32,067 bases of DNA, taken from NCBI GenBank assembly GCA_022572805.1, contig JACZVF010000005.1, forward strand, positions 1-32,067, in the 5' to 3' direction. The translations under genes and the position numbers were made by a program. The notes beneath the pieces are model-generated. The model did not search any database, had not been told where the DNA came from, and saw only the letters and a program-made list of their open reading frames with translations. Source of the stretch: Chloroflexota bacterium (GTDB lineage: Bacteria; Chloroflexota; Dehalococcoidia; Lucifugimonadales; JADFKI01). This document shows, piece after piece, positions 4,029-5,264 of this stretch (positions are counted from its first letter, which is position 1; each line of letters starts with the position of its first letter).

Positions 4029-5264
4029 ATGTCTGGCATTTCCCGTCTGAAACTAACGGTAGGCACGCTGCTCCTGGCGCTGATGGCCCTGGTCGTGGCA
4101 TGCACTGGTTCGGCGGGCCCCACCGGCCCCGTCGGTCCTCAGGGCCAGTCAGGCAACCCGGGTCCAATAGGCTCCGTGGGTCCTCAGGGCAATTCCGGCG
4201 TAATCGGTGCGCCTGGTCCCCAGGGGCAGCGAGGCGTCCCTGGTCCTTCCGGCCCGCAGGGCAACAGAGGCCCCGCCGGTCCTCCTGGCGCTCCGGGCCC
4301 TGCCGGTCCTCCCGGCCCGTCTGGTCCTCCTGGCCTGCCAGGCCCCCCTGGCATAGGAGTGGGTTCGTCGATAGACACGTTTGTCACCGGCGCGGCGATG
4401 GACGTAAAAACGCAGATCATCACACAGCGCCTCAGAATATCGATCACCGGCTCGGGAGGTACAGGCACGGACGCCGATGACGTTATTGCCAGGATGGATG
4501 CCGCCAATGTCGACAGGGCGATTGTGACAGGCCTCGGGTACCATTTTTTCGTGGGTGATGATAGAGAGGTCGCCAGGGAAAACAAGTTTGTCGCCACTGA
4601 GGTGGCTAAATACCCCGACAGGCTTATTGGCCTTTGCGGCGTCAATCCTCACTTCCTCAGCGCGCCTTCGGAATTGGAGGCCTGCCTGAAATTGGATGGC
4701 ATGGAGGGCGTGGTACTGCATTTGCCCGATTCCAAGCTGGACATGAATGATACTGGCGACGCCAACAAGCTCCGTAGGTTATTCGAAGGTATCGACGATA
4801 GCGACGTCCCCCTCATGATTCACGTAGGCGGCCCCAGGTTCGGGCTGCCGCTGGATTCCAAAGGGTTCGAAAATCTGGTTGACATGATGGCCGAATTCAA
4901 AGACGTAAGGGTGTTGCACACCCAGTGCGCGGGATTAACTGACGAAAGACGTATCGAAGTCTGGTTGTCGCTTCTACGAAACGAGCCTTCCAGCGGGCTT
5001 GTGCGAGCCAATCACTTTGTGTCCACCGACGACTGCCTGGCCGCGCATAAGGACGACCCGCTCCTGAACAAGGAACTGATAGTCTCTCGCCTGCGCAGGT
5101 GGGGCATCGACAAGGTGCTGTTCGCCTCCGGCTACCTGGATATAGGAAACGGAAGCCAAACGCCGGAGCAGGCCCTGGAAACCTTGTCCAGTTACCCGTT
5201 TACCCAGGAAGAGATCGACACCATAGTCGGGAACGACGCCTCGGCTTGGCTTACAGGTAAGTAG
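4029..5264 (+). CDS. Collagen-like (Gly-X-Y) lipoprotein fused to an amidohydrolase_2-like TIM-barrel domain
   Basis: Signal peptide plus lipobox (LMALVVAC), then 28 consecutive G-X-Y triplets ([12 protein letters not shown]...GPPGIG). The C-terminal domain has amidohydrolase_2-like motifs: [66 protein letters not shown]. Confidence 0.85.
4107..4358 (+). repeat. Collagen-like Gly-X-Y repeat coding tract (28 triplets)
   Basis: Uninterrupted G at every third residue from aa 27 to aa 110 of the 4029..5264 ORF; 9 bp periodicity at DNA level (ggtcctcc/ggccc units). Confidence 0.95.

Follow-up and report, generated by a model that had tools for sequence, protein, structure and literature searches.

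A predicted collagen-stalked lipoprotein with a very probably inactive ACMSD-type head in Chloroflexota

Introduction

A gene in a 32,067-nt stretch of DNA from a marine SAR202-type Chloroflexota bacterium (hereafter the window) encodes a 411-aa protein in which a predicted lipoprotein signal peptide and an uninterrupted collagen-like tract precede a barrel of the ACMSD/LigJ type that has lost four of its five metal or catalytic residues and is very probably a pseudoenzyme. The reading favoured here, with a probability of about 0.6, is that of a lipid-anchored, collagen-stalked pseudoenzyme serving in binding or scaffolding at the cell surface. The window gene belongs to a 2.87-Mb metagenome-assembled genome (MAG) in 316 contigs with 6.6% contamination, and every sequence compared likewise comes from metagenome-assembled genomes. 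The parts of the protein are as follows.

4029..5264 (+): fusion gene (lipoprotein-collagen-pseudoamidohydrolase), 411 aa; Pfam matches, orthologues L005 and L006
4029..4103 (+): signal peptide with lipobox VVAC (residues 22-25), lipidation Cys25 at 4101-4103
4107..4358 (+): collagen-like region, residues 27-110, 28 Gly-X-Y triplets; PF01391 and shuffles
4359..5261 (+): head, ACMSD/LigJ-type barrel without the catalytic site, residues 111-411; PF04909, AlphaFold2 and Foldseek

Anchor and collagen-like stalk

In the signal peptide, a short n-region with basic residues leads into a hydrophobic h-region (mean hydropathy 2.5) and then the lipobox V22-V-A-C25; the remainder of the protein holds no further membrane-like segment. 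Met1, Ala24 and Cys25 are invariant across the three orthologues (window, G006 and G007), and the VVAC lipobox of the original prediction is confirmed. The lipoprotein reading is workable because genes for Lgt (E=8e-45) and Lsp (E=3e-35) are present in the same genome. By sequence prediction, the protein therefore carries the export signal and surface anchor that characterize bacterial collagen-like proteins. The original prediction had also placed it on the outer surface. A lipid-anchored surface position is still predicted, but Chloroflexota are considered monoderm (PMC13319060), so that the surface in question is probably the outward side of the cytoplasmic membrane, presumably the only one of the cell.

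The collagen-like tract comprises 28 uninterrupted Gly-X-Y triplets, exactly the number first read, of which the last is GIG. Pro occupies 15 X and 9 Y positions, and 20,000 composition-preserving shuffles gave no run longer than 12 triplets. The Collagen profile PF01391 matches the protein with E=4e-15 (55.6 bits, cut-off 27.2). Long, Pro-rich and unbroken, the tract resembles those of bacterial collagen-like proteins, and by arithmetic the rod would be ~24 nm long if a triple helix forms.

Fold of the head

The Amidohydro_2 profile (PF04909) matches residues 177-397 (E=3e-11; 44 bits, cut-off 26.4), and the two orthologues score 29.7 and 33.8 bits, above the same cut-off. The match covers profile positions 58-276; since it starts at position 58, the first strand with its HxH motif lies outside it. 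An AlphaFold2 model of the head, built with eight family members as input, has a pLDDT of 84 and a pTM of 0.85. When this model is compared with the PDB by Foldseek, the top matches are 2,3-dihydroxybenzoate and 5-carboxyvanillate decarboxylases, LigJ and ACMSD, with E-values of about 1e-9 to 1e-7 (3e-9 at probability 1.00) and moderate TM-scores against the solved enzymes (about 0.6, range about 0.57-0.66); LigI mutants are also among the fold matches. A sequence profile search of the PDB recovers the same enzyme families. The phmmer match of the head alone to the PDB is weak (E=0.055), and the fold call rests on the profile and fold searches. In a viral fold library, the best match was an ACMSD-like protein of a giant virus, which is not informative. 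An amidohydrolase_2-like fold of the ACMSD type had been proposed from the start, and the assignment of the head as an ACMSD-type (beta/alpha) barrel is supported by Pfam, the PDB profile search and the modelled fold.

Loss of the catalytic site

Active metalloenzymes of this kind have an HxH motif on strand 1, His on strands 5 and 6, and Asp on strand 8. Alignment of the window head with intact relatives places these elements as follows.

4407..4415 (+): strand-1 metal motif HxH, replaced by K127-T-Q129
4821..4823 (+): strand-5 His, kept as H265; Asn in G007
4923..4925 (+): strand-6 metal His, with Gln299 in its place (Arg in G007)
5130..5132 (+): strand-8 catalytic Asp, with Gly368 in its place; SDY has become SGY in each of the three fusions of this family

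Only H265 is thus retained, and the other four of the five metal or catalytic residues are replaced. The residues of G006 at these positions are the same as in the window, and in G007 all five are lost (N, I, N, R, G). It is these substitutions that carry the argument. As supporting statistics only, with window and G006 non-independent, the loss can be set against positions invariant among three intact relatives (5 catalytic, 106 other): 4 of 5 catalytic versus 30 of 106 other positions are lost in the window (Fisher p 0.03), and 5 of 5 versus 39 of 106 in G007 (Fisher p 0.008). The motifs GLPL and CAG are retained in the fusion heads, and across the three fusions no new set of His, Asp or Glu consistently replaces the lost residues. 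The original prediction, which described a displayed metabolic enzyme, missed the absence of catalytic residues; judged by its sequence, the head is very probably a pseudoenzyme and not an active enzyme.

Conservation and gene neighbourhood

The orthologue in the same genus (L005 in G006) is 73% identical to the window protein, and that in another genus (L006 in G007) is 47% identical over nearly the full length, signal peptide and collagen included. A search of the five remaining genomes of the family did not find the fusion. Between window and G006, dN/dS is 0.087 for the head, 0.14 for the collagen region and 0.41 for the signal peptide; the value for the head is approximate because dS (1.9, pS 0.69) is near saturation. 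Even with dN/dS approximate, the head fold is under purifying selection, and it is this, together with the dead site, that leads the head to be read as a pseudoenzyme and not as a relic. The surroundings of the gene contain the following features.

2797..3693 (-): divergent alpha/beta hydrolase gene, adjoining the fusion gene in all three genomes
3694..4028 (no strand): intergenic region of the divergent pair, with one weak sigma-70-like site at 3807-3836 (+)
5296..5321 (+): terminator-like hairpin (intrinsic) of 11 pairs, ~30 bases past the stop codon

An HtrA-like protease gene follows in all three genomes, with a BrkB gene in between in the window and G006, and the window contig is collinear with that of G006. 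The intergenic regions align well between window and G006 only, not with G007, and no conserved promoter element is claimed. The stem of the hairpin is long and perfect; the search that found it is statistically weak (one hairpin versus a shuffle mean of 1.5). Convergent with the fusion gene, 5338-7668 (-) encodes a 776-aa protein with a BACON_2 domain, whose G006 counterpart ends in a Cys-hydrophobic-Arg-rich tail that resembles a sorting or membrane anchor. Further on, 7943-10243 (+) encodes a 766-aa protein that matches ATP-type PEP carboxykinase only weakly and in part (E=2e-10) and has a counterpart of the same length in G006.

The exported head family

Relatives of the head group into a small family of exported proteins, supported at 96/96 and 99/97 in two trees. 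The closest ones outside the order come from Caldilineaceae (L036, 49% identity) and Acidimicrobiia (L038, 41%). Both have an N-terminal hydrophobic segment and the same four Cys as the window head, and differ from it by an intact site and the lack of collagen. L038, from an Acidimicrobiia MAG, stands beside a Chloroflexota branch of the tree; belonging to another phylum, it reflects either horizontal transfer or a binning error.

4635..5036 (+): four Cys, C203 (4635), C219 (4683), C300 (4926) and C336 (5034), invariant in 8/8 exported heads

Each of the eight exported heads has C300 and C336, and the 13 other relatives aligned have neither, a distribution that suggests a disulfide between them, gained with export.

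Other members of the family do carry collagen. L045 (G220:C151, 244-2766, -) has a lipobox, collagen and a homologous head in common with the window protein, and differs from it by an intact amidohydrolase site and a third, C-terminal domain that resembles serine beta-lactamases (PF00144, E=4e-55); it lies outside the window's branch of the tree. L043 (G202) and L044 (G200) combine a lipobox, collagen and an extra domain with a head that is missing just the first His (MTH and RAH). In G198, a copy of an intact-type head is broken: its frame is interrupted and its N-terminus is missing. A plasmid search with the intact head gave no match. An AU test rejects one clade for the collagen-fused heads (p=0.027), a result against a single origin of the fusion, and the stalk was therefore acquired or shed on more than one occasion. 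For the first His, one loss event is not rejected (p=0.29).

Comparison with known proteins

Scl1/Scl2, BclA, PclA, Lcl, Bucl3 and Bucl8 share with the fusion a signal or anchor, a Gly-X-Y rod, a globular non-collagenous domain and a surface location. TNF/C1q-like heads are also known on bacterial collagen-like proteins. The flanking domains described for these proteins include V domains, Talin-1 and efflux domains (PMC8968730), and Bucl3 and Bucl8 are predicted lipoproteins (PMC4565658). An amidohydrolase barrel, the head of the window fusion, was found in none of those described. The NCBIfam equivalogs SclB and Lcl match the window protein over the collagen only, with scores for the Scl/Lcl adhesins far under the cut-offs (53.1 of 325, 42.1 of 500 and 36.1 of 400 bits).

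With ACMSD, the gamma-resorcylate, 2,3-dihydroxybenzoate and 5-carboxyvanillate decarboxylases and LigJ, the head has fold and sequence profile in common. Unlike the ACMSD/amidohydrolase_2 enzymes, however, it is exported and collagen-stalked, has two extra Cys, and has lost HxH, the strand-6 His and the strand-8 Asp. In AibH1H2, the amidohydrolase-fold subunit AibH1 is paired with a subunit holding the catalytic dinuclear site (PMC10401708). AibH1 is a precedent for such a barrel kept in a supporting role, but it differs from the window fusion in being part of a heterotetramer, in still binding one metal and in lacking collagen.

Literature searches returned only unrelated work on collagen-like proteins with amidohydrolases (including CHAP 'amidohydrolase/peptidase' phage lysins) and nothing relevant on collagen in SAR202 or Chloroflexi/Chloroflexota; in both cases subscription papers lay mostly outside the search, which makes the absence weak evidence. 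On amidohydrolase pseudoenzymes, only a general review was found, and the words 'hydrolase' and 'lipoprotein' are absent from the review of prokaryotic collagen-like proteins (PMC8968730).

Collagen lipoproteins across the order

The original prediction called the architecture unusual. This is supported in that the literature yielded no described family with such an architecture, but the protein is not an isolated oddity, being one of an order-wide set with different heads. PF01391 matches are found in all eight genomes of the family and in 213 of the 247 genomes of the order (up to 16 matches per genome); among order genomes with a completeness of 90% or more and a contamination of 5% or less, the count is 86 of 95. 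Of the 34 top-scoring ORFs inspected, 28 have a lipobox-like motif ahead of the collagen tract. Many of the stalk heads are tandem beta-sandwich domains, for which an Ig-like fold is only likely, given a model with pLDDT 69 and pTM 0.47. Collagen-stalk lipoproteins with interchangeable heads are apparently a widespread, undescribed trait of the order.

Several other combinations were seen. Trypsin-like protease domains follow a lipobox and 43 Gly-X-Y triplets in L109 (G108:C168, 241-1314, -) and a lipobox and 36 triplets in L128 (G109:C16, 1207-2277, +); the domain matches PF13365 (E=4e-15) and its GMSGGGL motif looks intact. L126 (G120:C188, 1-1791, -) combines a CHRD domain with a lipobox and 27 Gly-X-Y triplets. 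In L111 (G059:C44, 1294-3171, +), a lipobox and 19 triplets precede a multihaem cytochrome of the MtrC/MtrF type (PF22113, E=2e-24), which has five or more CXXCH motifs in a frame that runs beyond the locus; from its sequence, L111 may be an outer-surface electron-transfer protein on a collagen stalk. The window's own genome encodes two more collagen-like proteins, at G000:C182 (L089) and G000:C255 (L097), one with a beta-sandwich-like head and the other with a GDKGDKG-rich tract.

Function of the fusion protein

As a stalked pseudoenzyme, the protein would be exported and lipidated at its Cys in the cytoplasmic membrane; three chains would wind into the collagen rod, which would carry the barrels outward through the envelope. 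The barrel, no longer catalytic, would have taken on a new role in binding or scaffolding, as a head that captures a small molecule or polymer, or contacts a protein, much as head or stalk makes the contacts in other collagen-like surface proteins. Its fold would be kept by purifying selection and probably also by the export-linked disulfide C300-C336, and the head would derive from an exported, catalytically competent amidohydrolase, relatives of which persist with and without a collagen stalk. The retention of H265 in the window counts against the pseudoenzyme explanation. Moreover, ACMSD-family enzymes are dimers or tetramers, and a trimeric stalk therefore fits poorly.

The main rival, itself rather improbable, is that the head has no ligand of its own and is a structural cap or spacer that nucleates or closes the collagen rod. 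Collagen-like proteins generally carry a non-collagenous domain directing trimer formation (PMC8968730), the catalytic residues are gone from the window head, and within the order the same type of stalk bears unrelated beta-sandwich heads, so that the head type seems replaceable. However, a 300-aa barrel is large for a cap, the stalk in G220 bears a catalytically intact head followed by a beta-lactamase-like domain, and other stalks bear proteases or a cytochrome, so that the heads of all these proteins probably do chemistry; conservation alone cannot separate a cap from a receptor.

It is unlikely that the head is still an enzyme, with a rebuilt or metal-free site. Such a site would accord with the retention of H265 and of GLPL and CAG, and some superfamily relatives, such as LigI, whose mutants are among the fold matches, work without metal. 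Yet LigI too uses the strand-8 Asp, which is Gly in all three fusions, the H265 equivalent is itself among the five residues lost in G007, and a consistent replacement set is lacking. A decaying relic, in which a former enzyme fused by chance is drifting, would be in keeping with the broken head copy in G198, but is very unlikely in view of the open reading frame, a dN/dS of about 0.09 and a neighbour order conserved over two genera. Least credible is an assembly or binning chimera of two genes: the MAG is 6.6% contaminated, but the same fusion was recovered from three genomes assembled independently, and the order of the contig agrees with that in G006. The binding or scaffolding pseudoenzyme is therefore preferred.

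Significance

The small exported family offers a natural series, from an intact stalkless enzyme through an intact enzyme on a collagen stalk and a head with the first His lost to a fully dead site, in which the change from enzyme to surface receptor can be studied. Nearly all members of this order of mostly uncultured bacteria, with a hardly known cell surface, have collagen-like lipoproteins, and enzymes and a multihaem cytochrome on collagen stalks extend the bacterial use of collagen beyond adhesion. More tentatively, and on balance doubtful, the lipid anchor and collagen rod of SAR202-type Chloroflexota may be a general display platform that holds interchangeable heads (beta-sandwich, protease, multihaem cytochrome, CHRD, amidohydrolase, beta-lactamase) off the single-membrane cell; in the window lineage, a catabolic-enzyme barrel on this platform would have ceased to catalyse and would now serve as a receptor or scaffold for organic matter outside the cell.
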